In this document: piece by piece, positions 10,762 to 61,429 of the stretch
How the letters are laid out: each line of letters opens with the position of its first letter
How positions within the stretch are numbered: the first letter of the stretch is position 1
Assembly: GCA_030710605.1 (NCBI GenBank)
Contig: CP092871.1
Location: forward strand, 73,623,171 to 73,687,170
DNA length: 64,000 nt
Source of the DNA: Cordylochernes scorpioides
Taxonomy: Eukaryota; Arthropoda; Arachnida; Pseudoscorpiones; Chernetidae
Reading direction: 5' to 3'
The notes under the pieces: model-generated
The model's input: the letters and a program-made list of their open reading frames with translations, nothing else
Told to the model about the DNA's origin: nothing
Databases searched by the model: none
Position numbers and translations under genes: made by a program

Positions 10762-10780
10762 CTTTATTTTATGAGTTCCA

Positions 10781-31860: not shown

Positions 31861-31924
31861 AAAGATTGAAGAATTACTGATTACACACAAAGGTGCAACT
31901 GTGAACCAGTGATTACTTCTCAGG

Positions 31925-38942: not shown

Positions 38943-39407
38943 TCAGTAGAAAGTAGGACCACCGCGGACGGCGACAGCAACATGTCTAGGTAGATAGTCA
39001 ATCAGACTACGGTTGGCGTCCTGAAGGATGGCTCTCCATTCCCTTTCAACCATTTGCCACAGTTCGTCTTCTGAACGCGGCTGTGGCAAGGCATGCAACT
39101 GGCGTCCAATAATGTCCCAGACGTGCTCGATCGGTGAGAGGTAAGGAGAGTACAGCGGCCAGGGAAGCATATGTACATCTTTCAGAGCTTGTTGGCTAAT
39201 GAGAGCAGTGTGCGGTCGGGCCTTATCCTGCTGATAAAGGGCATTGGACACCCCCTGAAGGTAGGGGTGTGTCTCCGGCCTCAGCACATCATCAACGTGT
39301 CGTTGAGCCGTCATATTGTCCTGAATACGAACTAAAGGTGACATGGTATCATACGCGATCGCGCTCCAAACCATGATTCTGCGTTGTCGCGCGGTGGGGC
39401 GTTCCAC
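38943..39407 (-). pseudogene. Tc1 transposase, C-terminal catalytic part
   Basis: 154 codons: RRIMVWSAIAYD, then QQDKARPHTA (second catalytic Asp) and LYSPYLSPIEHVWD (catalytic Glu), about 34 residues apart as in DD34E Tc1 transposases. The first catalytic site lies upstream in another frame at about 39450-39480. There the usual FSDESRF motif reads FSGESRF, so the first Asp is lost. Inactive. Confidence 0.88.
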
Positions 39408-39612
39408 AAATGCTGCCGGATTGAACCTTTCTCCACGTCGACCCCAGGCGCGTAACGGCGACTCTCACCGAACAAACAGAAGCGTGACTCGCCTGAGAAC
39501 ACGACCTTGAGTCATTCTGTCATCCACATAAATCTAGCCCGGCACTATTCTTGCGTCTATTCAGTAGTAGATTTCTTACCGGACGACATGAATGCAAGCT
39601 TATAACAACCAA

Positions 39613-40057: not shown

Positions 40058-40069
40058 ATTTAATTCTAT
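40058..40069. repeat. 12-bp target-site duplication, left copy
   Basis: ATTTAATTCTAT, repeated exactly at 42360-42371 across the whole tandem array. Confidence 0.85.
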
Positions 40070-40376
40070 AAAGCAATAACGCGCCATCTATACATATAAA
40101 ATAAAAGGATTTAAAAGCGCGAATGTTTCTTTTATACATAAAACGAACTTCTACTGTCCTTACTGCGATGAAAAAATATATTGGGAGGGCTTGGCTCATC
40201 AGTGGTGAACCCTCCCAGCGGTTTCGCCAATTTAATCCACCAGACCGCTTCTCAGAGCTCTAATACTGTATTGGATCATTCTGCTTTTATATGCTACACT
40301 GAAGGATGGAATCTTAGAAATGGTTTTCAAGTAAACTATGGACATAAGCTTATAGGAGAGTAGAATTACATTCAAA

Positions 40377-42359
40377 GTGGGAGGGTTCACCACTGATGAG
40401 CCAAGCCCTCCCAATATATTTTTTCATCGCAGTAAGGACAGTAGAAGTTCGTTTTATGTATAAAAGAAACATTCGCGCTTTTAAATCCTTTTATTTTATA
40501 TGTATAGATGGCGCGTTATTGCTTTGTGTTAATCTATTCCTAATGGCCTTGTCTTTATAGTTTGCTGAAGAGCATTCCTCGAAGCAAATATTTGAATGTA
40601 ATTCTACTGTCCTATAAGCTTATGTCCATAGTTTACTTGAAAACCATTTCTAAGATTCCATCCTTCAGTGTAGCATATAAAAGCAGAATGATCCAATACA
40701 GTATTAGAGCTCTGAGAAGCGGTCTGGTGGATTAAATTGGCGAAACCGCTGGGAGGGTTCACCACTGATGAGCCAAGCCCTCCCAATATATTTTTTCATC
40801 GCAGTAAGGACAGTAGAAGTTCGTTTTATGTATAAAAGAAACATTCGCGCTTTTAAATCCTTTTATTTTATATGTATAGATGGCGCGTTATTGCTTTGTG
40901 TTAATCTATTCCTAATGGCCTTGTCTTTATAGTTTGCTGAAGAGCATTCCTCGAAGCAAATATTTGAATGTAATTCTACTGTCCTATAAGCTTATGTCCA
41001 TAGTTTCCTTGAAAACCATTTCTAAGATTCCATCCTTCAGTGTAGCATATAAAAGAAGAATGATCCAATACAGTATTAGAGCTCTGAGAAGCGGTCTGGT
41101 GGATTAAATTGGCGAAACCGCTGGGAGGGTTCACCACTGATGAGCCAAGCCCTCCCAATATATTTTTTCATCGCAGTAAGGACAGTAGAAGTTCGTTTTA
41201 TGTATAAAAGAAACATTCGCGCTTTTAAATCCTTTTATTTTATATGTATAGATGGCGCGTTATTGCTTTGTGTTAATCTATTCCTAATGGCCTTGTCTTT
41301 ATAGTTTGCTGAAGAGCATTCCTCGAAGCAAATATTTGAATGTAATTCTACTGTCCTATAAGCTTATGTCCATAGTTTACTTGAAAACCATTTCTAAGAT
41401 TCCATCCTTCAGTGTAGCATATAAAAGCAGAATGATCCAATACAGTATTAGAGCTCTGAGAAGCGGTCTGGTGGATTAAATTGGCGAAACCGCTGGGAGG
41501 GTTCACCACTGATGAGCCAAGCCCTCCCAATATATTTTTTCATCGCAGTAAGGACAGTAGAAGTTCGTTTTATGTATAAAAGAAACATTCGCGCTTTTAA
41601 ATCCTTTTATTTTATATGTATAGATGGCGCGTTATTGCTTTGTGTTAATCTATTCCTAATGGCCTTGTCTTTATAGTTTGCTGAAGAGCATTCCTCGAAG
41701 CAAATATTTGAATGTAATTCTACTGTCCTATAAGCTTATGTCCATAGTTTCCTTGAAAACCATTTCTAAGATTCCATCCTTCAGTGTAGCATATAAAAGA
41801 AGAATGATCCAATACAGTATTAGAGCTCTGAGAAGCGGTCTGGTGGATTAAATTGGCGAAACCGCTGGGAGGGTTCACCACTGATGAGCCAAGCCCTCCC
41901 AATATATTTTTTCATCGCAGTAAGGACAGTAGAAGTTCGTTTTATGTATAAAAGAAACATTCGCGCTTTTAAATCCTTTTATTTTATATGTATAGATGGC
42001 GCGTTATTGCTTTGTGTTAATCTATTCCTAATGGCCTTGTCTTTATAGTTTGCTGAAGAGCATTCCTCGAAGCAAATATTTGAATGTAATTCTACTGTCC
42101 TATAAGCTTATGTCCATAGTTTACTTGAAAACCATTTCTAAGATTCCATCCTTCAGTGTAGCATATAAAAGCAGAATGATCCAATACAGTATTAGAGCTC
42201 TGAGAAGCGGTCTGGTGGATTAAATTGGCGAAACCGCTGGGAGGGTTCACCACTGATGAGCCAAGCCCTCCCAATATATTTTTTCATCGCAGTAAGGACA
42301 GTAGAAGTTCGTTTTATGTATAAAAGAAACATTCGCGCTTTTAAATCCTTTTATTTTAT
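40377..42359 (+). repeat. 372-bp tandem repeat with 744-bp higher-order period
   Basis: Anchor GGGAGGGTTCACC recurs every 372 bp. Units alternate between two variants. One has AGTTTACTTGAAAACC and AAAGCAGAATGATCC (about 40640, 41380, 42120). The other has AGTTTCCTTGAAAACC and AAAGAAGAATGATCC (about 41010, 41750). So the effective unit is a 744-bp dimer in the order A-B-A-B-A. Apart from those sites the units look almost identical, so the array is young or homogenised. Confidence 0.95.
40732..40782 (+). ncRNA. Permuted hammerhead-like core (one example of five)
   Basis: The order is UUGGC-GAA-ACC-(8 nt)-GGU-UC-ACCA-CUGAUGA-GCCAA. ACC/GGU would be stem III, UC the cleavage site, and GCCAA pairs with UUGGC as stem II (locally, or with the next unit across ~320 nt). 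No stem I can form from the ACCA between UC and CUGAUGA, so this is not a canonical hammerhead. It repeats every 372 bp at about 41104, 41476, 41848 and 42220. Confidence 0.4.
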
Positions 42360-42371
42360 ATTTAATTCTAT

Positions 42372-44405
42372 GTAAATAAGCGATACGAAAAGGCTATTGT
42401 CGAAACCTAACCTTGTTTTATGGTCAAAATAAATTAAACCTACCATTTATGACAACGGAATTGTTTTAATTAAAATATATTTTAGAGATATTGAACGTTT
42501 TACCTATAAATATATTGCAAAAAATAAAATCTATTTCTACTCTCAAATTATGATGTTACAGGAAAAGGTAATTATCAGTAAAAAAAAAAAATTTCAATCA
42601 AACATAGTTTTTTATATAAAATATTAACTAAAAATAGAGATGATTTTAAATAAAACGAAAAACAAATTGAAAATATTAAAGCGTTTAGATAAACTTTCCA
42701 GACGAGAATTGTACGAATTAAAAAAAACAGCAGAAGAACGTAACATGACACCGGGTAAGCTCCTATTACAAAGTAGCGCTCAAGTTCACGAACACAGAAT
42801 AAACTTTCGCTTTTTTTTTCCTAGGATATTTTTCTCTGATGTAAAAATAACTTTTCAACTAATTTCAGCAAGCAATTAAAATCGAGTTTCTAATATCATT
42901 TAATATATTTTTTATAATAGTTTTTTTAATAAAAATATTATTAATTGTGTAAAAGGCACAGGATTCTGCAATAAATTTCCTAAAGGTCTTAGGTTACAAT
43001 TAATGGTCAAATGTTGCATTTTTTTACTATCGTCTGATTAATAATAAAGAAGAAAGCGATCACGTGACTCGTTCCATTAATTTTACAAATTTTCCCGCGT
43101 TTTTTTATTAGCTTTTCACTCACTTATGATCTATAATTATATTTGCTTAATATCTTTACCAATAATCGACTCTTTAAATATATTTATGATGCTTAAAAGT
43201 CTCATGAACTATTTTTGACAGAAATTAAGTTATACAACTTTTGAAATATATGTAAATTTCACTCTGGAATTTACAAAAAATACAAATATCATTGAAATAA
43301 TACAAAGATAATATATAATAGAATAATATTAATTTTTTTCATACTATAATAAAAAAGTGTACTGTATGTAATTAACTATAATATATAACTATATATAATT
43401 AACTAAGTACACTATACTGTAATTTACTATATTAATTATTACATTTTAAATGGATAAAAAGATTCCTAATTTCTTAATAGATACCACATTCTGTGTCTGG
43501 CCAAAAGACCGAGAAGCAATTTGCTTAATAGATAGTGGTGTATTTCTATATTTAAATATTCCACGGTCAAAAATAATTAAATCATAGAAATTAATCGCCT
43601 TTTATATATTTTAATTATTTTTATGTAATAGTCTTCGAATTAAAAAAAAAAAAAACATTCCGTATTTTCTGTTAGTATTTGCGCCTTTTATTCTCTTGAT
43701 ATTATTTAATGAAGATGAAATAATTTTTATATACTCTTTGTCAGTAGAAATAAATATCCTTTTAATAATAGATTTACGCTATAATTTCTTTTTGCTTTGT
43801 TTATAGGATATCTATCATTCTATCAGAACTTTACTAAAAGCTTCAATCAATGCACAGGAAGGTATAATTCGCCCGATTTCTTCTATGGAATGATCAGATT
43901 TGCATAATGTGTAGAATAGTTTCCGGTGAAAATATCAAAAAAATCCAAACTATTCTCCTCTAAATCGTGGTTTAGAGATAAACTTATATGCAAATATTCT
44001 TAGAACGAGTTTCTATAAAATATTTGTAGTGCCTTCAAAAGGGAAATTGTTTAAGGTTTTGCATATACCTACTCGAATAGAGTGTTTAATTATAATATAA
44101 CTAACATTTAGGACTATATATACATATACCTTATGTTCATATTCTGTCCACTTTTAAATATCTATCTTACAATATTATGGTAATATGCAAAATTTATATC
44201 ACAAAATTGATTAAGCTTCCATTTCAACGCAATGTTAATACCACTGATCAATTGGAAAATATCAACCTTTTCTGTTTTCTAAGGAAGACACTCTTAGGTA
44301 AATATTATTTTGCTATATATTATATTTATAATTGTGTAATTTTTACATGAAAGTGACAATTTAATTTTTATTAATCATATCATTGTTAAGAGATGTAAAA
44401 TTTGC
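42372..44405. other. No gene recognised
   Basis: AT-rich DNA, densely stopped. An open frame at 42640-42879 starts with a Lys/Leu-rich run resembling a short helical peptide, but nothing supports expression. Confidence 0.5.
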
Positions 44406-44410
44406 ATAGT
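44406..44410. repeat. Target-site duplication of copia element, left copy
   Basis: ATAGT, repeated at 47550-47554. Confidence 0.85.
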
Positions 44411-44626
44411 TGTTGTATTCCAATTGATTACACACAGCGCTCAACGTTAATTATACTTTAATTAACTATAAGGTAAAGGGATTATATATATAGTAAATGG
44501 TAAACATGAAGAGAAAGAAAAACAAGTCAGCGATGGCGAGACGCCGCTTGCAGAGGTTACATCACCAGCAGGAAGTGAGTCAGCTCCAGTGTTGCCGAAG
44601 CCAAACGTCGCTGCCACGATCCAACA
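44411..44626 (-). repeat. Copia LTR, left copy
   Basis: 216 bp. By eye it is identical to 47334-47549. Confidence 0.92.
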
Positions 44627-44653
44627 AACTCCTCCCTCGAAGTGATCCCTTCT

Positions 44654-47140
44654 TTATGGATTACTTCGCCGTCCATAAGTCTCGAACGATGAAGTTCGTA
44701 TAGGTTTCTCCCCAGTGGCTTGGTCAAAATGTCCGCTAGGTTTCTTCCACTTGTTTACTTCAGCACTGAGGAGTGCAATTGAGTTCCGAGTATCTCTCTG
44801 GTTCCTTAGGATCATTGGATGAGATCGAGTAGGAGAAGGCTTCACAGTATCTTCATTATGGCTGTCCTCTTCTGTAGGTGTCACGTCTTCTTGATCTAAT
44901 AAAGACACTGGATTCTCTTCAATCTCCCGTTGAGTCCCATAGCTGTAGTGTTCAACTGATGGAAGCACCTCCCGGTTGCTGTCGTTCCTCGATACATCAC
45001 TCTCTTTGAAGACACAATCCCGAGATTCCACCACTTTCTTCATCTCAGGAATCCACACTCTGTAGCCACGTCCTCTGAGTGCATATCCAACAAGGTTACC
45101 TTTGACAGCTCTTCTTTCGAGTTTGGATTTACGGACTTGTCCTGGAATATGGACAAATACTTGACAGCCAATAGCTCTTAGGTGTTTAAGACTAGGCTTG
45201 TTCCCTGTCCACAGTTCATATGGCGTGCTTTCACCATTGTGATTGTTGAGAACTCTGTTTCTGACATAGGCTGCGGTGTAAGTCAGCTCCGCCCAGGAAG
45301 CCTTTGGCAGACCACTTCCAGATATAGTGCTCCTGACAAGATCTAGGAGTGTCCTATTCATTCTTTCTGCCACACCATTCTGTTGAGGTGTATACGTCAT
45401 AGTGTGTTCATGAACTATTCCAACGCTCGTGCAGAAAGTGTCCCATTCTTTGAAACAAAATTCCAAGCCATTATCCGTACGTATTTGTTTTAGTTTCCGG
45501 CTGGTTTGTTTCTCAGATTCTTGAATCCACTCTTTGACTTTTCCCAGGGTTCCGCCTTTGTTTTTCAGGAAAAATACACTTGTATATCTCGTAGATTCAT
45601 CAATGATGGTTAAGACGTACTTGGCTCCTCCCCAGCTCAATACGTCGAGTGGACCCATCAAGTCCGCATGCACCAAGTCCAACGGCATGATTTCTTTTTC
45701 CTCCTTGTGTGAGTGTTGAAGGAATGGCAGACGGTAAGACTTGCCGATCAAGCAGTCTTCGCACTTTTCTGGCTTTGCCGGGCTGCAGTCTTCGCACTTT
45801 TCTGGCTTTGCCGGGCTGCAATCAAGTCCTCTTACGCTTTGGTTCTTGGCCATCTTTTCTATCGTATATGCATTTACATGCATCAGCCTTTTGTGCCAAA
45901 GTTCCAGTGTAAGCTCTTCCTTGCATTCAGATGCAAGAGAAACACGATCATTCTGATCTATCGGAGAGGATGGAGTAGTCTGGACGTAGTAAAGTCTACC
46001 CAACTTCTTTCCCTCTATCAAGAGTTTACCTTTCATGTCCATAATGTGGCAACCACTCATGTTGAAGACAACTTTTCTACCGTTTTCTATCATTTGGAGT
46101 ACAGACAGAACACTGTGACGCATATCTGGAACATACAAGGTGTTCTGGGCAATCATATTGCTGGCATCTCCTTTGTGTCCAACAATATTGGCACTGACAG
46201 TACCGATACCACATACTTCTATAGAAGAGCCATTCGCAATAGTGATGGAACTCATATTGCTTGTGCACTCTTTCAGACAGGTGAAGTAATCTCTCTTGGG
46301 AGTCATATGGTGCGTCGCTCCAGAATCTATGATCCAGGTCTCGGCGGTAGCTCCAAACAAAGTGTTGCACATTTCCGACATATTTACGCCTTTGTTTTGG
46401 TCAAACCTCTTTGGTCTTTGTTCATTCTTTCCTTTCTTCCTGCATTCCCTTGCATAATGGCCTTTACCTCCACATTTGAAACAAACAACCTTTGCTTTAA
46501 ATTGTTTTTCTGTTTCAATGGGCTTCGAAGAGGCATTAACGACCATGGCACCCACATCTTTTGGTAGATTAGACGAACGCCTTTCTGCTTCTGCCAACAG
46601 CCGTCTTTTAACTGTGGCGGTCGTGAAGTCTGAATCAGGCAAGTTACATATGGTTGAGACAACGATGTCCCAATCCTCTGGTAATCCACCCAAAAGAACC
46701 ATAGCCAAATCGCCATCATCAATTTTGTCGCCAATTTGGGCCAGTTCGTTTACAATGTAGTTTATTTTCCCCATATACCCTTCCATATTGCTGTGCTGAG
46801 TCAACCTTTCGCCATATAACTGCCTTCTTAGTTGTACGGCTCGATATCTACTATCCTTTGGTGCGTATAGTTTTTCCAGTTCTTCCCAGACCTCTTTCGG
46901 AGTATTCAAATGTTGAACATGCAATTGTTGTTCATCATTAATCCCGAGGCAAATTTTTGCAGACGCCTTACCCTCCCGCGACAAAAAAAGTTTTGTTGCA
47001 ACAAGGTCACTAGGGTCAGGCTTAGCCTCTCCTGGATTGATCAAACTCCACAAATCGTTTTCGATTAGAACGAGTTTCATCTGGAAGCTCCAGCTAGAGT
47101 AATTAGCACCATTTAATTTTGTAATCGTTGTGTTCGCCAT
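44654..47140 (-). CDS. Copia Gag-protease-integrase polyprotein, RT deleted
   Basis: About 828 codons from the ATG at 47138-47140 (MANTTITKLNG). An earlier in-frame ATG at 47188 adds 16 atypical residues. Order: Gag (YSSWSFQMKLVL, LRRQLYGERL), CCHC knuckle CFKCGGKGHYAREC, protease WIIDSGATHHMTP with intact DSG, and GAG-pre-integrase (LWHKRLMHVN..CEDC). The integrase core has its D, D and E (HADLMGPL, RTDNGLEF, PQQNGVAERMN), followed by the copia post-integrase domain (IGCQVFVHIPGQ). After about residue 790 the frame runs into sequence that, one frame over, is the extreme end of a copia RNase H. So RT and RNase H were removed by a deletion near 44745-44760. Confidence 0.92.
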   Translation of the reverse strand: MANTTITKLNGANYSSWSFQMKLVLIENDLWSLINPGEAKPDPSDLVATKLFLSREGKASAKICLGINDEQQLHVQHLNTPKEVWEELEKLYAPKDSRYRAVQLRRQLYGERLTQHSNMEGYMGKINYIVNELAQIGDKIDDGDLAMVLLGGLPEDWDIVVSTICNLPDSDFTTATVKRRLLAEAERRSSNLPKDVGAMVVNASSKPIETEKQFKAKVVCFKCGGKGHYARECRKKGKNEQRPKRFDQNKGVNMSEMCNTLFGATAETWIIDSGATHHMTPKRDYFTCLKECTSNMSSITIANGSSIEVCGIGTVSANIVGHKGDASNMIAQNTLYVPDMRHSVLSVLQMIENGRKVVFNMSGCHIMDMKGKLLIEGKKLGRLYYVQTTPSSPIDQNDRVSLASECKEELTLELWHKRLMHVNAYTIEKMAKNQSVRGLDCSPAKPEKCEDCSPAKPEKCEDCLIGKSYRLPFLQHSHKEEKEIMPLDLVHADLMGPLDVLSWGGAKYVLTIIDESTRYTSVFFLKNKGGTLGKVKEWIQESEKQTSRKLKQIRTDNGLEFCFKEWDTFCTSVGIVHEHTMTYTPQQNGVAERMNRTLLDLVRSTISGSGLPKASWAELTYTAAYVRNRVLNNHNGESTPYELWTGNKPSLKHLRAIGCQVFVHIPGQVRKSKLERRAVKGNLVGYALRGRGYRVWIPEMKKVVESRDCVFKESDVSRNDSNREVLPSVEHYSYGTQREIEENPVSLLDQEDVTPTEEDSHNEDTVKPSPTRSHPMILRNQRDTRNSIALLSAEVNKWKKPSGHFDQATGEKPIRTSSFETYGRRSNP
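45757..45822 (-). repeat. 33-bp tandem duplication inside the copia gene
   Basis: GCAGTCTTCGCACTTTTCTG..GCCGGGCT occurs twice in a row, duplicating the peptide CSPAKPEKCED in the zinc-binding GAG-pre-integrase region without breaking the frame. It adds an extra Cys pair. Confidence 0.85.
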
Positions 47141-47207
47141 TTTACAAAATATTTGGTAAGTAGAAAAAAGGATGGTCCAAGTAATCAAAGGAAATTTGGT
47201 TACTCAC

Positions 47208-47330
47208 GTTTTAGGCTTCGCGCTTCTTCAGTCTGACGTTTTAAGTCTTGTGCTTCTTCAGTTTCACGTTTTAGGCCTTGCGCGTCTTCAGTCTCACGTT
47301 TTAGGCCTTGGGCTTCTTCAGTCTCATAAT
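47208..47330 (-). repeat. ~29-bp tandem repeats in the copia leader
   Basis: Four imperfect copies of CACGTTTTAGGC(C)TTG(C/G)GC(T/G)TCTTCAGTCT lie between the gene start and the right LTR, i.e. in the 5' leader of the RNA. They may act in packaging or may simply be slippage. Confidence 0.8.
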
Positions 47331-47333
47331 CTT

Positions 47334-47549
47334 TGTTGTATTCCAATTGATTACACACAGCGCTCAACGTTAATTATACTTTAATTAACTATAAGGTAAA
47401 GGGATTATATATATAGTAAATGGTAAACATGAAGAGAAAGAAAAACAAGTCAGCGATGGCGAGACGCCGCTTGCAGAGGTTACATCACCAGCAGGAAGTG
47501 AGTCAGCTCCAGTGTTGCCGAAGCCAAACGTCGCTGCCACGATCCAACA
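47334..47549 (-). repeat. Copia LTR, right copy
   Basis: 216 bp. It is the 5' LTR of the minus-strand element, followed by TSD ATAGT at 47550-47554. Confidence 0.92.
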
Positions 47550-47554
47550 ATAGT

Positions 47555-47770
47555 TTTAATACCATTATTGCCTATAATGCTCGTAAGTAATAGTTTTGCT
47601 TAGAGTAGTTTCTAAAATATGTTCATCCCTGACTTTGAAGTTTAATAAGATCAACAACCAATCCAGGTCTCTTTTACTATCTTTATTTCTCTAGCTTTTA
47701 GGCCAACATACCCTTCAACAGGAGAACTAGGAGTATGACTTCCAGCTAACTTTACACTCCGAAAATATAA
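47555..47770. other. No gene recognised
   Basis: A short spacer between the copia element and the solo LTR. Nothing recognised. Confidence 0.5.
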
Positions 47771-47774
47771 ATAT

Positions 47775-48317
47775 TGTTGCGTTGTTGGTTAACAAAGAAT
47801 AACTTCCGTGGGTACAAAGGATCTTTAGGACTTTATTTAAGCCTAATTGATAAAAATAATTACAGAAGAGTGCAAAAAATAAAACAACAATAAAGAACAC
47901 AGCAGTTACAAACTCATCAACTGTAGCACGGTGAGGGAAAGCAGGATAAGAACAGGAGACAGAAGTTCGTAGAACCTTCTAGAATCTTCCAGGAAGTACA
48001 CCGGCGTCGGCGGTAAGCAGCAGTCCGACCTCTTGAGACAGCAGCTTGCTTGGAGTACACCACGTAGCTTCGTTCTTCGACCTTCTTTTATCTTTCTTCT
48101 TCCCTGGCATGAGTTTCTCATCCCTATATATCCCGGAGTAGATCTTTCCAGAACGGTCACGGTTGGTCAGCCAATCAGAAAGCCGCCAGCACCGAGCGTT
48201 GCGCAATAGCTGTAGATTGGCCAATCAGTTGTCTTCCGCTTTTTCTACAAAATTTTTAAACGCTCTAGAACATTCTCTCTCCATCTGGAATGTGCTTTTA
48301 TTTCTCTCTACGTAACA
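47775..48317 (-). repeat. Solo LTR, minus orientation, ATAT target duplication
   Basis: 543 bp running TGTTGCGTTG ... CTACGTAACA, with ATAT at 47771-47774 and 48318-48321. On the minus strand there are CCAAT-like boxes (CTGATTGGC twice, near 48170 and 48222) and a TATA-like GGGATATATAGGGA near 48130. That is promoter order for an LTR read leftwards. No internal region, so probably a recombination product of a gypsy-type element. Confidence 0.75.
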
Positions 48318-48321
48318 ATAT

Positions 48322-48454
48322 AAACATATTTATTTATATGAAAGAATGAAAGAAAAAAATAAAAGATAAAAATTTATTTATATGTATTTATTGTTGTGTG
48401 CTTTTCATTCGACTCTAGATCTATCTTTTATATATAATATATATGCTAATTTAA
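48322..48454. other. Short AT-rich spacer
   Basis: Nothing recognised. Confidence 0.5.
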
Positions 48455-49290
48455 ACCAACAACCTCATATTGTGTATAATATAACAAGATTTTCATGTAT
48501 AAGAAACACATCTGTAAATAATTATACGCATGATTGACATGTGTCCTTACGTCATCATATGTAATGTACTTTGTACAGACTAAAGATAAATAAATAAAAC
48601 TCTGTAATAGATTAAGAGTTGAGCTAAAACAAGAGATTGAGATAGAAGTCCAACAATGTATAAAAACGAAGCTCACAAGATGTCAAGGCGTTGCCAGGAG
48701 TATACAATGACTCTCTTCCGATCCACGCCCTTGTCGATTCAGCTGAAACCCAATACTTCCTCTCGGCAAAGATATATTAGCCTCCAACAGGCCCAGAAAT
48801 AAACAGTCACTGCACCATCAGCGGAATCCCTCGTCGGTTGTGTCCAAGGTCCACCTCATCCACCATGTAGACCAGTAAGATTCTTCTCAAATCTCCATCA
48901 TTCGCTCCTTAGCTCGACTTTTATCTGCTCAAGGAACTTTCCTAGTAAAACTGTGTCTCTTCGTTTATTGTATGGACATTCTCAAGTTATCCACTCTGCC
49001 TCGACCACGACTGCCTGTTTTTCTGTGAGAACTGTTAAAGGTCTTCCAAGGCGGAAAGAGGTACTGGAAAACTCTCCACACCCTGACTGTCCCTCTCGGT
49101 TACTACAGGTTTGACCCTCTCGGTTACCATAGTAAAGCGAGAGACCCCCTCAAATCTCACACCACAGTGAGAAACCCTCTGGATATCACAGTATAGAGAG
49201 AGTCGATAGGATCTCACACCATAGCTTAAGTCGACAGGATTACCACACAACGACCGGATGACCACAACGAAGGAGGTAAGAAGCCTGCCC
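48455..49290 (+). repeat. LTR-like repeat, forward arm of a foldback
   Basis: Related to 3910-4743. Its first ~470 bp recur inverted at about 49300-49696 and 51781-51860, so it forms a foldback whose right arm is split by the PLE. No coding capacity. Confidence 0.65.
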
Positions 49291-49299
49291 AGATAAAAC

Positions 49300-49696
49300 T
49301 CGAGCTAGGAGCGAAAGGATGGAGATTTGAGAAAAGATCTTACCGGTCTATATGGTCGATAAGGTGGACCTTGAACACAACCGACGAGGGCTCCCGCTGA
49401 TGGTGAAGTGACTATATTTATTTCTGGCCCTGTTGGAGGCTTATATATCTTTGCCGAGAGGAAGTATTGAGTTTCAGCGGATGCAACAAGGGCGTGGATC
49501 GGAAGAGATCATTGTATACTGGCAACGCCCTGACTTCTTCTACATCTTTTAGACGTTGTTGGACTTCTATCTCAATCTCTTTCTTTTGCTCAACTCTTAA
49601 TCTATTACAGAATTTTATTTATTTATCCTCAGTTTGTACAAAGTACATTACATATGATGATGTAATTACACATGTCAATCATACATATAATTATTT
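49300..49696 (-). repeat. LTR-like repeat, inverted arm (first part)
   Basis: Reverse complement of about 48520-48910 (ACAACCGACGAGGGCTCCCGCTGATGGTG; GAGATTGAG/CTCAATCTC). It ends with ATATAATTATTT (49685-49696), the left copy of the PLE target duplication. Confidence 0.65.
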
Positions 49697-49732
49697 AAAG
49701 AAAAACAGGGTAACGTGGTAAGATTCTTTTAA

Positions 49733-49779
49733 TAGAACACGACGAGCTTTCAGGCAGCAACTGCCCTTCTTCAGGTCTA
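49733..49779 (-). ncRNA. PLE hammerhead-like ribozyme, left arm
   Basis: Minus strand: CUGAAGA, stem II AG(G)GCAG/CUGCCU, GAAA, GCUCGUC. It mirrors 51661-51706. CUGANGA and GAAA are satisfied, stem III would be minimal (AGCU/CGU), and stem I is weak. Confidence 0.55.
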
Positions 49780-50019
49780 ATACAAGTGTAGACAAAGAAG
49801 TGCCATATTTATAAGCGAAAATATTTACATATATACGCGCAAAGAATAAGGAATTTTACATACTGGAGATTGGAAAGGGGAATTTGCATATTTACAAATA
49901 AAAATAAAACAAACTCTGTGTGAGAAATAGAGGCAAAAACGGAGATAAAAATTAAATCTGAAGGCAAAACACGGAGATAAAAATTGAACCGTAAATAACA
50001 ATAAAAACCCAGAAACATA

Positions 50020-50574
50020 TCAGCGAGTGAGGCCGTAAAATATTGTATATTGCGGTGGGAGATCAATCTTCCGGTTAAAACTGGGAGTACAGTTGGACAC
50101 CAGTGCTTCCAGAACCAAGCGTTGGTACTTGTTTCCAATATCCCTGTATACAGAAATCGTATCGTCTAAATTAAAGGAATGGTCGAAATCTGCCATGTGT
50201 TGAAAGATGAGAGATTTTCGATCTTTGGAACGTATATTACGGTTGTGTTCGCGGATTCTAGTGGCGATGGTTCGACCAGTTTCACCTATGTAGCATTGCT
50301 CACAATCGTTGCATGATATTTTATAGATGCCGTTATTGAGGGATAGAGGGTTAAGTTTGATAGAGCTTTTTGTTATGGGGTGCCGTAAGGATGCTTCTAG
50401 GGAAGGCGAATTTTTGAAAAACGTGCGAATACCGAATTTTCGTAAAAATAACGCAATATCAGAGTTAGTGGTCGAAAAAGGAAGGACACAGACGTTTTTA
50501 TACAGCGGAGGTGTAACTTTTTTGAGGTTCGGAACGTAAAAATGGCGGTCAATAAAATTATGAGGGTAATGCAA
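50020..50574 (-). pseudogene. PLE GIY-YIG endonuclease fragment, inverted arm
   Basis: 184 codons identical or nearly so to the C-terminal ~180 residues of the plus-strand copy. GIY (NNGIYKISC) and YIG (CYIGETGR) signatures, then RIREHNRNIRSKD. The N-terminal RT part is cut off at the inversion junction (about 50568), so it is only a fragment. One visible change is N for L after REHN. Confidence 0.88.
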
Positions 50575-51420
50575 TTAAAACAATTAAACTCATACCATCA
50601 TGATCTCCGTTTTACTCACAACCCATCATGTTTTAATTGCATCCCGTTTTTAGACGTTTTAGTCATCAACACTAATGGCACTTTTCAGACCACCGTATTT
50701 CGCAAGCCTAACTTCACTCCCTCCTATTTACACTTTTTATCACATGCCCCGGTTTCTCACAAAATCACCACGGTAAAAACTCTCTCCAAACGGGTATATA
50801 CTCATTGTTCCCTTGCCTTATTTAGAACGATCGAGAAGCGTACCGTTTACACCCATCTTTTATCCGCCGGTTACCCTCATAATTTTATTGACCGCCATTT
50901 TTACGTTCCGAACCACAAAAAAGTTACACCTCCGCTGTATAAAAACGTCTGTGTCCTTCCTTTTTCGACCACTAACTCTGATATTGCGTTATTTTTACGA
51001 AAATTCGGTATTCGCACGTTTTTCAAAAATTCGCCTTCCCTAGAAGCATCCTTACGGCACCCCATAACAAAAAGCTCTATCAAACTTAACCCTCTATCCC
51101 TCAATAACGGCATCTATAAAATATCATGCAACGATTGTGAGCAATGCTACATAGGTGAAACTGGTCGAACCATCGCCACTAGAATCCGCGAACACAACCT
51201 TAATATACGTTCCAAAGATCGAAAATCTCTCATCTTTCAACACATGGCAGATTTCGACCATTCCTTTAATTTAGACGATACGATTTCTGTATACAGGGAT
51301 ATTGGAAACAAGTACCAACGCTTGGTTCTGGAAGCACTGGTGTCCAACTGTACTCCCAGTTTTAACCGGAAGATTGATCTCCCACCGCAATATACAATAT
51401 TTTACGGCCTCACTCGCTGA
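50575..51420 (+). pseudogene. PLE reverse transcriptase C-terminus with GIY-YIG endonuclease
   Basis: About 280 codons to a TGA at 51418-51420. The open frame formally starts at ATG 50542, but that ATG is in the inverted arm; PLE homology starts after the junction. RT thumb-side sequence comes first (FNCIPFLDVLVINTNGTFQTTVFRKPNF, YLHFLSHAPVSHK), then a linker, then GIY-YIG with CCHH-like Cys pair (CNDCEQCYIGETGR..RIREHN..H). The nuclease nicks target DNA and the RT copies RNA onto it. The RT palm with its catalytic Asp residues is missing by 5' truncation. Confidence 0.92.
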
Positions 51421-51660
51421 TATGTTTCTGGGTTTTTATTGTTATTTACGGTTCAATTTTTATCTCCGTGTTTTGCCTTCAGATTTAATTTTTATCTCCG
51501 TTTTTGCCTCTATTTCTCACACAGAGTTTGTTTTATTTTTATTTGTAAATATGCAAATTCCCCTTTCCAATCTCCAGTATGTAAAATTCATTATTCTCTG
51601 CGCGTATATATGTAAATATTTTCGCTTATAAATATGGCACTTCTTTGTCTACACTTGTAT

Positions 51661-51706
51661 TAGACCTGAAGAAGGGCAGTTGCTGCCTGAAAGCTCGTCG
51701 TGTTCT
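51661..51706 (+). ncRNA. PLE hammerhead-like ribozyme, right arm
   Basis: GACCUGAAGAAGGGCAGUUG is followed by CUGCCUGAAAGCUCGUCGUG. Stem II is 6 bp with one bulged G. Boxes CUGAAGA and GAAA and triplet GUC are in place. Located 240 bases after the gene stop, in the terminal repeat region where PLE hammerheads are known. Confidence 0.6.
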
Positions 51707-51768
51707 ATTAAAAGAATCTTACCACGTTACCCTGTTTTTCTTTGAATATTACAGCGTGGCGATATGAT

Positions 51769-51860
51769 ATATAATTATTTGCAGATGTTTGTATTATACA
51801 TGAAAATCTTGTTATATTATACGCCAATATGAGGTTGTTGGTTTAAATTACCATATATAT
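51769..51860 (-). repeat. LTR-like repeat, inverted arm (second part)
   Basis: It starts with the right copy of the 12-bp PLE TSD and continues the arm broken at 49696 (ATACATGAAAATCTTGTTATA, then AATATGAGGTTGTTGG), the complement of 48467-48505. Confidence 0.75.
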
Positions 51861-52680
51861 ATATAATCTATTTATGAAAATTAGCTCATCGTTTAAAATA
51901 AATTGTAAATTATTTTTAATTTTAAATTAAAAAATATATATATTATTTTATGTTAATATATTGCTGATAATTCTAACCATAAATATTCACTAAATTTTTC
52001 GTTTTTTAATGTGGTGAAGAAAGAAATGGCTTCCGCCACCAGTCACGTATTTCAGAAATGCTGACAGCAGAAAGAAAGGCTGACTGAATATCGCACTTGC
52101 ATATTTCCTGGCAGCGCGATTAAACTCTTCCAAAAGTGCAAATTCAAAGCGTTCGTCTGCCAAGATAAAAGAGAGGGCAATCAGAGCATGCGTGACAGGC
52201 CTCCATATCACAATTGTCTGCCGTGTCTTTTGGTTGTTTATTTAGAAGATGGAAGATTTATTTGTATGGATTAGACAGAAAGAGAAATTTTTAAGCCTTT
52301 TTTTAAATCCTAAATTTATGTTTCAAGCTTGCCACACATTTTAATATACTATTACATAGAGTTATATAATATATAAGAAGAGGTTTATATAAACATTTTA
52401 AAGTTGTTTTTATTGAAGTACATGTTGAGAGAGAGAGAGAGATTGAGAGATATTTGAAATTTGATAATTAAAAGAGATATGTAATTATATATTTAACAAT
52501 TTTAAAAAGTAAAATTCAATTATTTAGAAGATTAGAGATTTATTTATAGAAATTAAACAGAAACCTTTTAGGCTTTTTGACACCTAATTTCAAAAATTAA
52601 GCTTGGAATATTATAATATTTTTATTTAATAGATTATAATACACGGTGGTCCATTAGTCCTGAAAAATTGATAAGCAAAA
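51861..52680. other. No established gene; weak exon candidate inside
   Basis: AT-rich, except for a GC-richer stretch at about 52010-52230. A (GA)n run occurs at about 52431-52448. See the candidate exon at 52047-52156. Confidence 0.4.
52047..52156 (-). other. Candidate exon of unknown gene (weak)
   Basis: On the minus strand a pyrimidine-rich tract CTCTCTTTTATCTTGGCAG precedes an open stretch that reads DERFEFALLEEFNRAARKYA and onward, and a GT follows at 52045-52046. The composition is richer in GC than the neighbourhood. I do not recognise the protein; the donor site context is poor. Confidence 0.2.
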
Positions 52681-52702
52681 TTGGCAAACTGATAAGCGTC
52701 CA

Positions 52703-52746
52703 CCTAGAGACCATGGTTTCGGGCTAATGGCCCTCGTCAGTCTAGG
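52703..52746 (-). ncRNA. Hammerhead ribozyme, intact core
   Basis: Minus strand: stem I CCUAGA/UCUAGG (6 bp), CUGACGA, stem II GGGC-CAUUA-GCCC, GAAAC, minimal stem III ACC-AU-GGU, cleavage triplet GUC. All catalytic bases are present (position 7 is C, which is tolerated). Type I with a very short stem III, as in PLE and retrozyme hammerheads. Confidence 0.85.
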
Positions 52747-53050
52747 GCGGACTTTATTCCATGAGATCCGCACGGGATCTAATGGAATCCTCACAATCTA
52801 CCAAAGAGGTGTTTTGCTGGCAATGTGGCTGGGCCAAAATAAACGTCCCGTCAAAATAAACGTCAGAATCTGACGTTTATTTTGACGGGAGAGGCGACCA
52901 TTGCTTCCATGGATTAATTTCCTCCCGGCAAATTTTCCATCTATGTTTTGCCAATAGATTTGGCCCAGCCACATTGCCAGCAAAACACCTCTTTGGTAGA
53001 TTGTGAGGATTCCATTAGATCCCGTGCGGATCTCATGGAATAAAGTCCGC

Positions 53051-53094
53051 CCTAGACTGACGAGGGCCATTAGCCCGAAACCATGGTCTCTAGG
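53051..53094 (+). ncRNA. Hammerhead ribozyme, intact core
   Basis: Exact plus-strand twin of 52703-52746: CCUAGA-CUGACGAG-GGC-CAUUA-GCC-CGAAAC-CAUG-GUC-UCUAGG. Transcripts from either strand of this palindrome would contain one ribozyme. Confidence 0.87.
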
Positions 53095-53230
53095 TGGACG
53101 CTTATCAGTTTGCCAAAGTTGGTGTTGTGGCTTTGTCACCGACCCGATGCCGCTAGTAGCGGCGACGGTCAATAGATGGCGTCTAGTTTTGACGTCTATT
53201 TTGGCGGAGAGGCGACCTTTGTCCCTTTAG

Positions 53231-54601
53231 AGTTAATTGGATTTAATTTAAAATATCATCATTAATTCAACGCTATCTATTGACGAATTAATCGATTTTT
53301 ATCGTTTAATATGTTGATGTAGGAGATATACGTCATAATTTATATATAGAAATCTTCCTCTCCAATATTATATTATATATAAAATACAAACCATAAAATA
53401 TAATAATACAAAATATCTTTATATATTCAATCACATGAAAGATGCCCTTAAAATTATTTATGTTAATGTATTTACATATATATAAATAACAAAATGTAAT
53501 ACTTGATGTTAAAATATGAAGTTTGGAATAATAATACGAATAAATAGCAGAAGTAATTTATATAACGTAAAAAGTTTGCAAACGAAAAAAATACATTAAC
53601 ATTTTATTCAAATATAATATATATATTTCAAAATATTAAATATTTCCACTAGTTCCTAATATTTAATGACTAAAAATATCGTTTTCTCTCAGTCAAAATC
53701 ATTTTCCATTCCTTAATTCACAGAAATATCAACTTCACATGAACGTCTGTTTGCTATTTATCATTTTAATCTTTTAATTCGGCAACCTCGCCGATGTTTA
53801 ATGAGAATTTTATACAAGACCTTCCATTTGTAGCACAAATTTTGATTTCTCTAATGGATTCCCAACTTTTAACTTTATTGATTTTTTAAAATGCTTAATG
53901 TTTTCTAAAACCTCCTTAATATATTTCGAAGTATATATTTGATTTGTGTTTTAAATAGAATTAGCTTAGAATAATATTTAATTTGGAACAAAAACGTTAT
54001 TATCCATATTTTTATAAAATTAATTTGTTCACTGAATAAAAAAGTAAAATTATATTTGACCAGTTCCTTTTAGAAACCATTGCTTAATTTGAAATAAAGT
54101 GACTTATCAGATTGAATTTTGAAAATTCAATATTGAAAATTAGCTTTAAATTTTTGGATTTTTAAAATCTAATCTTAAATATATATCTCTTCAAAACCTA
54201 CATATTGGAATATTTTATACGGTCAAATTTTAACAGAATATATTATAGCAGATTATAAGAAAATAATATATATTATATAGATTTTGCCATTTTAACAGAT
54301 ATACTTAACAGAAATACTTTAATTAAAACATTTTACACTTTAATAACATTTTCATTTTTAACGGTATTTTCGATTTAAAAAATAATTAAACAATTTTACA
54401 TTAGATATTTTTTATTATATTGATATACCTCTATTGAAATACTTTGAAATTGATGATTTTAAATATTTTTATATCCGTTTTAATCAAGCATTAGAAATTA
54501 AGCCTTTGATATTTTCTCGAATAAAGTTAATCACTGTTTAATTATGGAGTTAATATTCCTTATATTTCAGCTATAAACTACTTCCAAGCTTGTATTTAAA
54601 C
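53231..54601. other. No gene recognised
   Basis: Very AT-rich DNA with dense stops in every frame. Nothing recognised. Confidence 0.55.
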
Positions 54602-54612
54602 TATTTTATAAG
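54602..54612. repeat. 11-bp target-site duplication, left copy
   Basis: TATTTTATAAG, repeated exactly at 57341-57351. Confidence 0.85.
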
Positions 54613-54807
54613 TGAAAAAATAGTACAAATGTGATATTGTACTGAGATAAGGTGCATAAATTAAGAAAAAGGCATCTCCTTATCGTGCAACTGAAAGTTG
54701 CTGATGGCTTGCGCCATCTATCGGAATAAATATCAACTATTCTCGTTGATTTTTAATTATTCCAGAATTGGCCAAATACCCATTCTTGATTAATCATGAA
54801 AAGCTAA

Positions 54808-54847
54808 CCACGGACGCGTTTCGGGCTGTTGGCCCTCATCAGCGTGG
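54808..54847 (-). ncRNA. Hammerhead ribozyme, intact core
   Basis: Minus strand: CCACG-CUGAUGAG-GGC-CAACA-GCC-CGAAAC-GC-GUC-CGUGG. Stem I is 5 bp, extendable by an A-U pair. Stem II is 4 bp. Stem III is minimal (AC/GU around GC). All conserved core bases are present. Confidence 0.88.
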
Positions 54848-55306
54848 TGTAAGCTGTACCTCAACGACAAAAAAAAAAAAAAAGGTCATTAAGGCATCCT
54901 GAAAAATCATGAAACGGGTAGTTAAGGCCAGATTTGCGTGAGAACGCTACACAATGTGAAAAAAATAGTACAAATGTGATATTGTACTGGTGTCCGTGGT
55001 TAGCTTTTCTTGATTAATCAAGAATGGGTATTTGGCCAATTCTGGAATAATTAAAAATCAACGAGAATAGTTGATATTTATTCCGATAGATGGCGCAAGC
55101 CATCAGTAACTTTTAGTTGCACGATAAGGAGATGCCTTTTTCTTAATTTATGCATCTTATCCCAATCAATATCACATTTGTACTATTTTTTCACATTGTG
55201 TAGCGTTCTCACGCAAATCTGGCCTTAACTACCCGTTTCATGATTTTTCAGGATGCCTTAATGACCAATATTTTATTTTTTTTTGGTCGTTGAGGTACAG
55301 CTTGCA

Positions 55307-55346
55307 CCACGCTGATGAGGGCCAACAGCCCTAAACGCGTCCGTGG
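55307..55346 (+). ncRNA. Hammerhead ribozyme, GAAA box mutated
   Basis: Same as 54808-54847 but the second box reads CUAAAC instead of CGAAAC (loss of catalytic G12). Expected to be inactive. Confidence 0.8.
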
Positions 55347-55638
55347 TTAGCTTTTCTTGATTAATCAAGAATGGGTATTTGGCCAATTCTGGAATAATTA
55401 AAAATCAACGAGAATAGTTGATATTTATTCCGATAGATGGCGCAAGCCATCAGCAACTTTCAGTTGCACGATAAGGAGATGCCTTTTTCTTAATTTATGA
55501 ACCTTATCCCAGTACAATATCACATTTGTACTATTTTTTCACATTGTGTAGCGTTCTCACGCAAATCTGGCCTTAACTACCCGTTTCATGATTTTTCAGG
55601 ATGCCTTAATGACCAATATTTTATTTTTTTTTGTCGTT

Positions 55639-57142
55639 CATGAATCCTGCCAAGAAGAAAAAGAAGGCCTACAAGCCCATCGTAAACGTCGCCGACCTGG
55701 AGAGGGAAGATGAGATGGTGATCTCACGCAACTGCAGCATCCTGAGCTCCATTGGCCATCCTGCCCTGAAATCCCTGCATGAGGACCTGATCCGCTACAT
55801 CGCCTCGCGGACTGAAATGATCAAGGCCCTCGCTACCGAAGTAGAGAACCTCACTGACACCCTCGAGTCCTTCGCAGAGTTGGACGAAATTGAGGAGGCC
55901 AGCAAGCCCAAGACTGCTTGCCGCGGCACTCAAACCTGCCCTGCTCCTTACCGCAAGGAAACCAGCTCCCAGACTGACCCAATCAAGCCCGCCACTCCTG
56001 CTCCTGCTGCTCTCCCTGCCAAGAAGCCTGCCTCCACCTTGCCTGCTCCTGCTCCAACCAAAAGGAAGCAGTCTGAGGCTCCCAACCCGCCTGCAAAGAG
56101 GACAAACCTGAATGGTCCTTCAAAACCTGCGCCTTCCCGCGTATCCAAGCCTGCGGCCGCCCAAGTGATCCTCCATGGAGAAAAATCGGCGGCCCACATA
56201 GTGGTCATCTCTGATGACCCACAGGCTGACCCAAGGGAGATGCTAAAAGCTGTCCGCGCTGCCCACACTCTCCCCCAAGGCGTTTGGGCCTCCCTGCACA
56301 CCAAGGGGAAGCTGGTCCTCCACTCCAGTAATCCTGACACCATCCCTGAGGTGACAACCTCCCTGGCCAGCAAGTTGAATGGAATGAAGGTCCGCCAGCA
56401 GAAGGAGATCCTGCCACGGATCTGCCTCTTCAAAGTGGATGAGGAGACATCCAACTCCACAATTGAGGAGACCTTCCTGGAAACCGCTGCTGTTAGAAAA
56501 CTTCCTGGGGACAAGGTGGTGCGCGTGGCGCACCGTTCTGCGCCCAGAAGCGGGACCTGCACCGCCTTCATCGAGGTGGACCTCAAGACCTTTAGAGCCC
56601 TAGGCGTTCGCGGGAGAATCGTGGTTGATGGAGTAATCCTCAACTTCGAGGAGTCCATCCGCGCCCGCGTCTGCTTCCGCTGTTGTGGCTTCGGCCACAA
56701 CTCTGCCCAATGCTCCAGAGCTCCTAAGTGCTTCCACTGCGGTCAAGACGGCCATGAAGGCCGCGCCTGCCCATCCATTGCTGACCAGCGCACCTCCAAA
56801 TGTGCCAACTGCTGCTCCAAGGGCCTTCTTGACAAGCACGAGGCGAGAGCCTCAAGCTGCCCCATCCTGAAGTCTAGGGCCCTCAAGTTCTAGGCTTCAA
56901 GGATCTTCTGCCTCCAATTTTATCTGCCACTTCTACTGGATTCCTGGCCAATTCAATGCTCCTGCCTCACTGCACCCTGGCGCTGTTCCCCTGCTTGCCC
57001 AAAGTTTCCACTACCCCTGCGAGACATCTCCTGCCGCCAGATCCTAGGGTCCCTTGCCACCTGACATCGCGCTTGGACTCAAAAATCATAACTTTTGGTT
57101 AGTAGCCCGTAAAACCATATTTTCTCTCTTTTTTTTGTCGTT
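55639..57142 (+). mobile_element. GC-rich gag-bearing insertion within the hammerhead unit
   Basis: The unit is interrupted inside TTTTTTTTGTCGTT, present on both sides (55625-55638 and 57129-57142): an apparent 14-bp TSD. The insert is about 1.5 kb, far richer in GC than its surroundings, and encodes only a Gag-like protein followed by about 235 bp of untranslated sequence. No RT and no poly(A) tail are seen. A gag-only non-LTR retroelement (in the manner of HeT-A) or a processed ORF1 transcript are the leading ideas. Confidence 0.6.
55640..56893 (+). CDS. Gag-like (ORF1) protein with CCHC zinc knuckles
   Basis: About 417 codons from the ATG at 55640, one base after the insertion point. It is intact, with strong GC codon bias unlike its neighbours. 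Order: basic start (NPAKKKKKAYK), a helical/coiled-coil-like stretch at about residues 20-85, a long Pro/Ala/Lys-rich low-complexity linker (about 95-170), an RRM-like globular region (about 175-335), then knuckles CFRCCGFGHNSAQC, CFHCGQDGHEGRAC and a final CANC..C. This is the ORF1/Gag layout of R1/Jockey-type arthropod non-LTR retrotransposons, which binds RNA as a nucleoprotein. No ORF2 follows. Whether it is expressed is unknown. Confidence 0.85.
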   Translation: MNPAKKKKKAYKPIVNVADLEREDEMVISRNCSILSSIGHPALKSLHEDLIRYIASRTEMIKALATEVENLTDTLESFAELDEIEEASKPKTACRGTQTCPAPYRKETSSQTDPIKPATPAPAALPAKKPASTLPAPAPTKRKQSEAPNPPAKRTNLNGPSKPAPSRVSKPAAAQVILHGEKSAAHIVVISDDPQADPREMLKAVRAAHTLPQGVWASLHTKGKLVLHSSNPDTIPEVTTSLASKLNGMKVRQQKEILPRICLFKVDEETSNSTIEETFLETAAVRKLPGDKVVRVAHRSAPRSGTCTAFIEVDLKTFRALGVRGRIVVDGVILNFEESIRARVCFRCCGFGHNSAQCSRAPKCFHCGQDGHEGRACPSIADQRTSKCANCCSKGLLDKHEARASSCPILKSRALKF

Positions 57143-57157
57143 GGGGTACAGCTTGCA

Positions 57158-57196
57158 CCACGCTGATGAGGGCCAACAGCCCGAAACGCGTCCGTG
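57158..57196 (+). ncRNA. Hammerhead ribozyme, intact core
   Basis: CACG-CUGAUGAG-GGC-CAACA-GCC-CGAAAC-GC-GUC-CGUG. One G is deleted from the 3' side of stem I, leaving 4 bp; the catalytic boxes are complete. It lies just downstream of the gag segment, so a transcript through the gene would end in a ribozyme. Confidence 0.83.
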
Positions 57197-57482
57197 TTAG
57201 CTTTTCTTGATTAATCAAGAATGGGTATTTGGCCAATTCTGGAATAATTAAAAATCAACGAGAATAGTTGATATTTATTCCGATAGATGGCGCAAGCCAT
57301 CAGCAACTTTCAGTTGCACGATAAGGAGATGCTTTTTTCTTATTTTATAAGTATTGTTTTAAATAGCCTTTTCAATGTTCAATGAAAACATCATATAAGT
57401 TAGCAGTATGGTTTAGATATTTCTCCATTGTATTTATGCTAATTAATGTTCCGGTCAATATAATATAATTCAAATATTAACA

Positions 57483-60764: not shown

Positions 60765-61110
60765 ATAGAAACATTAAAGCATGAATATTTAGATTTCACA
60801 TAGAACAAACTTCTACTGTCTAGCGATTAAAAATATTGGGAGGGCTTGGCTCATCAGTGGTGAACCCTCCCAGCGGTTTCGCCAATTTGATCTACCAGAA
60901 CGTTTCTGTATTGGACGATTATGCTTATATATGAATGGTGGAATCTTTGAAATTGACGAAATGGCTTGGAGGTTTCACCACTGATGAGTCAAGCATCCTA
61001 ATATCGCAGTAAGGATAGTAGAAGTTTGTTTTAATATGTATAAGAAACATTCACGCTTTAATACCTTCCTATATATATAGATGGCGCGTTATTACATTAT
61101 GAAAAGATAT
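60765..61110. repeat. Inverted pair of 372-bp-family copies
   Basis: A minus-strand part at 60780-60905 (TTGGGAGGGCTTGGCTCATCAG, CAGCGGTTTCGCCAATTTGATC) faces a plus part from about 60945 (GAAATTGACGAAATGGCTTGGAGG, CACCACTGATGAGTCAAGC) to 61100, which includes ATAGATGGCGCGTTATTAC. About one inverted dimer, without a tandem array. Confidence 0.75.
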
Positions 61111-61429
61111 TCAGTTATATGCAAGTTTGGTGGAGAGACATAACAACCAACGTGTGGTAATTTTACCTATTAACAATATTTTCAGCTTTTCTGCCTGAAT
61201 GTAGAACTGGTGGTAGAAGTAGACAAACGACCAATGAGTCTGAGAAAAGCTTGTGTAATATCTTAGACTTATTACGTTGACAGGCATGGGAAACTGCCAA
61301 TACCTTTGTCATTCACCAACAACAAACATTCCCTATATCAAGAGCATTAAATTCAAAGAACAGAAATTCCAGACCAATTATTCCTGTAAATATGCAAATA
61401 TATTTATAGATATCAAAAATAAAAAAGAC
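61111..61429. other. No gene recognised
   Basis: A spacer between two hammerhead-family repeats. Nothing recognised. Confidence 0.4.

Follow-up and report, generated by a model that had tools for sequence, protein, structure and literature searches.

We analyzed a 64,000-nt stretch of the genome of the pseudoscorpion Cordylochernes scorpioides (NCBI GenBank assembly GCA_030710605.1, contig CP092871.1, positions 73,623,171 to 73,687,170 of the forward strand; below, the window, numbered from its first letter), in which a non-coding tandem repeat with a 372-nt unit and a putative hammerhead ribozyme occurs together with a fragment of a Penelope-like element (PLE). A first-pass annotation had singled out four insertions, labeled here ins1 to ins4, and proposed that the non-coding ones are parasites of the reverse transcriptase (RT) and GIY-YIG machinery of the PLE, i.e., an animal retrozyme system in one locus. 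The 372-nt repeat forms ins2 and the PLE fragment ins3, while ins4 belongs to a family with a 347-nt unit and a weakly gag-like open reading frame (ORF), referred to below as the gag family; a fifth insertion was overlooked (Table 1). Speaking of one locus is misleading, as each is an insertion of its own, and the 372-nt and gag families have 606 and 2608 first-look candidates, respectively, across the genome.

Table 1. Features of the window; paired positions of target duplications are the left and right copies, and sites A and B are explained in the text
Feature	Position	Strand	Remarks
ins1	17317-18402	+	Degenerate head-to-head insertion; no credible hammerhead; 33-nt tail, right arm only
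ins1 target duplication	17306-17316, 18403-18413		11 bp
ins2	40070-42359		372-nt family
ins2 target duplication	40058-40069, 42360-42371		ATTTAATTCTAT, 12 bp
ins2 shorter arm	40070-40376	-	3' end (40070) at unit position 148 (site B), with tail
ins2 longer arm	40378-42359	+	5.3 tandem 372-nt units; 3' end (42359) at unit position 122 (site A), no tail
Type-SGC (non-circularly permuted) hammerhead, ins2	40719-40785	+	Predicted cleavage after 40724
Further type-SGC hammerheads, forward arm of ins2	41091-41157, 41463-41529, 41835-41901, 42207-42273	+	
Type-SGC hammerhead, inverted arm of ins2	40182-40248	-	
ins3	49697-51768	+	5'-truncated PLE; two 878-nt arms, 99% complementary
ins3 target duplication	49685-49696, 51769-51780		ATATAATTATTT, 12 bp
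ins3 tail	51744-51768		25 nt, forward arm only
PLE ORF fragment, C-terminal	50572-51420	+	Ends in GIY-YIG domain, E=2e-6
Fifth head-to-head insertion	about 52676-53205	+	Borders approximate
Type I hammerheads, fifth insertion	53045-53106 (+), 52691-52752 (-)		
ins4, 347-nt/gag family	54613-57340	+	Inverted arm, then 347-nt unit, long coding unit, partial third copy
ins4 target duplication	54602-54612, 57341-57351		TATTTTATAAG, 11 bp
ins4 units	54992-55338 (347-nt), 55339-57188 (long coding)		Insertion ends at unit positions 201 (left) and 152 (right)
ins4 ORF	55640-56893	+	417 aa; weak gag-like zinc-knuckle matches
Type I (CGS) hammerhead, ins4	57151-57210	+	
Type I hammerhead, ins4	54795-54854	-	
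Copia-type element	23668-26894		Pfam
BEL/Pao-type element	31913-37195		Pfam
DDE_3 (mariner-like) element	38946-39464		Pfam
Second Copia-type element	44657-47203		Pfam

The perfect 11-12 bp direct repeats reported for the four insertions are all exact, lie directly at the insertion borders and occur twice each on the + strand of the window; a random-offset control gave an 11-mer match in 3/200000 trials. In all four, two arms stand head-to-head, so the described order of an inverted piece joined to forward copies holds, but the ‘inverted head’ is more plausibly a second arm, the two arms turning the same side of the element to the target. Moreover, exactly one arm of each insertion carries a tail, the PLE fragment included (33, 26, 25 and 51 nt in ins1 to ins4). 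Hammerhead boxes had been assigned to each insertion, yet a credible core was recovered in ins2 and ins4 only; in a descriptor test the CTGANGA boxes reach stems I/II/III of no more than 2/1/3 and 1/1/4 in ins1 and of 5/3/2 in ins3 and were rejected. PLE protein is encoded, as had been noted, by ins3 alone, the RT part of which was assigned by inspection without a family match, while ins4, with its ORF, is not non-coding as had been supposed.

Scanned across the window, the descriptor, in which the three hammerhead blocks may stand in any of their six orders, gave S-G-C for six copies of the 372-nt unit, five forward and one inverted. The classical type I order turned up at five places (two in ins4, two in the fifth insertion and one in an old copy at 6039-6134). 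None of the classical hammerhead types I-III fits the 372-nt unit, for which the scan gave S-G-C only. In ins2 the blocks read GCGGU C UGGUG (S), UUGGC GAA ACCGC (G) and CACCA CUGAUGA GCCAA (C), and the core is complete, with CUGAUGA, GAA, A15.1-U16.1, G10.1-C11.1 and the GUC site. The five forward copies and the inverted one form stem I with 5 Watson-Crick pairs (9 with wobbles), stem II with 5 and stem III with 6. An 8-bp bridging helix (TGGGAGGG/CCCTCCCA; UGGGAGGG/CCCUCCCA) was recognized by inspection and is present in the fold; it surrounds the C block and adjoins stem III. The nested part of the S-G-C fold scores z=-3.2.

The 372-nt repeat thus looks like a type-SGC hammerhead and is predicted to cut itself. 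It shares with the published type-SGC ribozymes and HRIMA-1 the S-G-C order, all core nucleotides, stems I-III and an extra helix that connects stems I and II on their outer sides (PMC10085705); a bridging helix placed directly against stem III, as here, is described there for few members. Tested type-SGC ribozymes cleave in vitro and require all four helices (PMC10085705). The published ones come from metatranscriptomes and from database searches covering RefSeq and metagenomes, and the main text of PMC10085705 uses none of the words retrozyme, animal or insect. Among the matches listed for the open-licence part of PubMed Central, no title or abstract links a type-SGC or permuted hammerhead to a retrozyme. 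If the assignment is right, the non-circularly permuted hammerhead gains a home in a mobile element.

The S-G-C arrangement could instead be coincidental or a dead relic, with the RNA cut otherwise or not at all. The linker between stems I and II, at 7 nt if stem I is taken as 5 bp, against typically 3 in PMC10085705, fits this view. Shuffling, on the other hand, does not reproduce the arrangement in which all core positions are present: when the window was shuffled 200 times with dinucleotides preserved (12.8 Mb of one strand), 5 S-G-C matches appeared at loose thresholds and none with all stems at least 5. The strict S-G-C pattern had no match in viral contigs or in genome contigs, and a relaxed G-C pattern found 38 stretches with 39 sites in the viral contigs, none with all stems at least 5 (two identical weak sites have stems of 5/3/4). 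Rfam returned no match at gathering score; below it, Hammerhead_HH9 appeared at 57147-57211 with 23.3 bits.

Sequence variation bears on the same question. In the genome (2.62 Gb, 24 contigs), the best 40 of the 606 first-look candidates for the 372-nt unit were scored, so the sample leans to young copies; 39 fetched loci (L numbers below) and the window gave 40, and removal of five duplicates left 35, which contain 157 unit pieces. Minor bases make up 35/7110 in the 67-nt core against 313/30306 across the remainder of the unit (Fisher p=7e-6), and within the core 21/6086 at paired or catalytic positions against 14/1024 in linkers (p=1.8e-4), kinship among the copies making both p values optimistic. 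By part, minor bases number 0/294 in GAA, 0/98 at the cleavage base, 1/802 in CUGAUGA, 2/980 in stem III, 3/1077 in stem II, 7/1785 in the bridge, 12/686 in the stem I-II linker, and 0/220 and 2/118 in the short linkers. Variation is thus lowest at paired and catalytic positions taken together, and least clearly so in stem I, whose rate (8/1050, or 0.0076) is near the 0.0103 of the rest of the unit and does not single it out. This lack of clear constraint on stem I speaks for coincidence or a relic. As for covariation, young copies are near-identical and older ones decayed: 85 full-core copies, duplicated loci included, are identical and the old ones are broken. In the old copy at 6316-6409 both bases of a stem III pair have changed, from C-G to U-A, in a core that is broken. 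Taken with the avoidance of paired and catalytic positions, the controls make coincidence or a relic unlikely.

The ends of the 372-nt copies carry the second line of evidence. With arms called at 95% identity or more, 26 of the 35 loci are head-to-head and none is tail-to-tail, and a target duplication of 12-15 bp flanks 24, namely 23 head-to-head loci and one single-arm locus (L042). At L044 the repeat is 17 bp of an AT repeat and is counted with this flag; a 21-bp repeat at L059 proved to be element sequence and was not counted. The duplications are 80% A+T, against 65% for the window (23 sequences, L042 counted and L044 left out). In 23/23 head-to-head insertions with a duplication, the arms end at two sites, A at unit positions 117-124 (median 122) and B at 148-160 (median 154), one arm at each; the distance between them, 26-38 nt (median 32), is the tail. 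The left arm carries site B in 12 of them and the right arm in 11, and one end bears 2 extra bases in L048 and 1 in L064. Were the two ends chosen independently and evenly, such pairing would have a probability of 1.2e-7. Two loci without duplications, L041 and L052, end at about 156/113 and 159/121.

These ends are what is expected of a PLE. The PLE protein of the anole cuts both strands of A+T-rich DNA, extends them and initiates reverse transcription from two neighboring positions inside its RNA; the segment between the two starts corresponds to the optional 30-40 bp tail of genomic PLE copies, which is called unique to PLEs (PMC11167929). Retrozyme copies with two start sites and a tail therefore point to a PLE. 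The 372-nt copies also share with PLEs (anole PAc, PMC11167929; rotifer Penelope, PMC3846280) the head-to-head partial copies, A+T-rich targets and a tail at one end, but they encode neither RT nor endonuclease, and their 12-15 bp duplications are longer than the 8-10 bp of rotifer Penelope (PMC3846280). The first-pass proposal that non-coding repeats ride PLE machinery is accordingly supported by the duplications and head-to-head arms of most of the 35 loci and, more strictly, by the tail signature, present in 23/23 372-nt copies with two arms and a duplication (about 32 nt) and in 6/7 gag-family copies with a duplication (about 50 nt).

We therefore read the 372-nt repeat as a non-autonomous animal retrozyme with a type-SGC hammerhead that is probably copied in trans by PLE protein, and put the probability of this reading at roughly 0.8. 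In the proposed mechanism, the stem III hairpin loop and the adjacent 8-bp hairpin loop would pair through stems I and II, and tandem 372-nt RNA would cut itself after the predicted GGUC of each unit. A multimeric or circular RNA would then be copied in trans by a PLE protein that cuts both target strands 12-15 bp apart. Reverse transcription would start from each cut strand at A (unit position about 122) or B (about 154), one strand using A and the other B in a two-armed insertion, and the two cDNA arms would be fused head-to-head at points that vary and where a few bases often overlap. In a bolder reading, to which we give even odds, the permuted hammerhead drives a mobile element of an animal genome, and the pairing of A with B reflects a PLE dimer on one multimeric or circular RNA, each subunit cutting one strand and the starts being obligately different. 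If it is true, each two-armed insertion receives one tailed and one untailed end. The pairing constrains how a PLE complex holds its RNA and two DNA strands.

The arms themselves give hints about the template. Units of one arm diverge by 0.0101 per site, the two arms of one locus by 0.0083 and separate loci by 0.0175, suggesting that both arms of a locus derive from the same or closely related templates. A monomeric circle as the sole template is not supported, as units within an arm differ. In the window array, units alternate at both internal variable sites (1, 3 and 5 alike; 2 and 4 alike), and at L062 alternation is seen at 5/5 sites with a 2:2 split across four units; such a pattern would arise if the enzyme went round a dimeric circle more than two times, or if the template was transcribed from an array that already alternated. 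Of 25 arm junctions, 16 overlap by at least 1 nt, 2 show no overlap and 7 have extra bases. The 5' ends of the arms are spread across the unit, though 11/52 fall at 365-372/1-17, against 3.5 expected (P=6e-4, for a region picked after viewing the data); this cluster, between stem III and the bridging helix, may be a stall point of the enzyme.

Several observations weigh against the proposed mechanism. Nine of the 35 loci are single-arm, and no duplication was found at 11/35 (L031, L032, L040, L041, L050, L052, L055, L057, L059, L062 and L067). The ends of L067, at 112/126, do not fit A/B, and its variants lie in blocks rather than alternating, which fits a tandem-array transcript as well as a circle. 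None of 52 arm 5' ends lies within 5 nt of the predicted cleavage site and one lies within 10 nt; cleavage has thus left no mark on the DNA copies. Insertion by the anole PLE was unaffected by hammerhead mutants, uncleaved RNA was the main substrate, and start sites were alike on both strands in bulk, the A/B pairing not being seen (PMC11167929). The anole PLE ribozyme needed PLE protein for cleavage. Finally, the gag-family tail of about 50 nt exceeds the 30-40 bp described for PLEs.

Another candidate for the mobilizing enzyme is a LINE-type element acting by target-primed reverse transcription, with twin priming giving the inverted parts, and duplications of 11-15 bp with truncations fit LINE insertions as well. 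Twin priming, however, yields an inversion of non-overlapping parts, whereas most of the loci are head-to-head and those with duplications meet the target with the same 3' region in both arms. Inspection of the ends of ins1 to ins4 revealed no poly-A. LINEs have been named as an alternative retrozyme mobilizer (PMC7229834), but two fixed internal starts with a tail are the feature ascribed to PLEs alone (PMC11167929), and we consider a LINE very unlikely. It is more improbable still that recombination and inverted duplication of satellite DNA gave rise to the repeats. They do form tandem arrays, and ten of the 40 loci make up five pairs of duplicated insertions with a reversed shared target duplication, but recombination predicts neither the own target duplications of 24/35 loci nor ends at two discrete positions, and these ends largely rule it out. 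In each of the five pairs (L038/L043, L044/L045, L046/L047, L053/L066 and L042/L056; L046/L047 on contigs 23 and 19) the same insertion and target duplication recur in reverse, as segmental duplications or assembly effects would produce.

That a PLE moves animal retrozymes was proposed from co-occurrence, tandem copies and shared hammerheads (PMC7229834) and repeated in PMC7761336; we regard the present copies as strong genomic, sequence-based evidence for this published hypothesis. The main text of PMC7229834 does not use the word ‘inverted’, and no title or abstract start among the matches listed reports a PLE tail in retrozymes. Like the animal (non-LTR) retrozymes described in PMC7229834, the 372-nt repeat has short non-coding tandem units (170-400 nt there), low G+C, multiple copies and duplications of more than 4 bp. 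Its S-G-C hammerhead, in contrast to their classical type I, makes it a variant rather than a classical member, while type I hammerheads are found in the gag family and the fifth insertion. The PLE-specific end signature makes the question of which enzyme spreads animal retrozymes directly testable.

The gag family shows the same kind of ends. Eight copies were examined: the window copy, four chance finds in flanks fetched for the 372-nt family (L052, L055, L063 and L064) and L108-L110, chosen because both strands matched in the candidate listing. Seven of the eight have a duplication, and six of these (window, L055, L064, L108, L109 and L110) clearly end at 151-154 and 199-203, about 50 nt apart; the duplication of L110 is partly AT repeat and that of L109 is 9 bp. 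The seventh, L063, is a weak match with ends near 198 and 162 and a 10-bp repeat, and no duplication was found at L052. With its ORF, type I hammerhead and similar ends, this family might itself be thought to supply the machinery, but the ORF shows only weak gag-like zinc knuckles (Pfam zf-CCHC, E=0.054; PDB Gag, E=0.0042) and no RT or endonuclease match, lacking the RT and GIY-YIG domains that define a PLE, so the family itself needs a helper and is hardly credible as the source. One ins4 hammerhead copy, at about 55312, reads TAAA in place of GAAA. By reading, the 347-nt unit and the long coding unit agree outside the segment bounded by two TTTTTTTTGTCGTT-like copies, and the non-coding unit may have arisen when the part of the coding unit lying between these short direct repeats was deleted, the direction of the change being our inference.

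Signals near the RT starts were also considered. All 13 occurrences of the motif TAGATGGCG in the window fall within three hammerhead families that otherwise differ (sites include 10310, 40082, 40505, 53173, 54712, 55087, 55434, 57284 and 61078). Its placement speaks against an RT start signal: in the 372-nt family it falls between sites A and B, in the gag family roughly 48 nt upstream of A; our guess is a shared promoter element. The RT starts of four families lie in or near U-rich hairpin loops, which serves as a lead only, and a 61-nt fold at the 372-nt 3' end in the window gave no signal (z=0.06).

Older material is scattered through the window. Decayed copies or pieces of the 372-nt repeat lie at 60750-61112, 6316-6409 and 20650-20914, the longer ones about 75-80% identical, and the family has therefore been active over a long time. 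Old relatives of the gag family (5999-6296, 61471-61707 and 20493-20577) each lie no more than a few hundred bases from an old 372-nt copy. A 13-bp repeat at 61428/61757 was discarded as a target duplication, as another old family copy (20366) carries similar sequence and the repeat is probably the element's own. Tandem repeats at 11417-11769 (118 nt, 3 copies) and 3303-3651 (169 nt, 2 copies) gave no hammerhead match in the descriptor scan. For the fifth insertion and its family, no clean target duplication was found; relatives lie at 9890-9988 and 10284-10985 of the window and at L044:2957-3563, and the insertion contains a palindrome at 52846-52890 (22-nt arms, 1-nt gap) near the arm junction.

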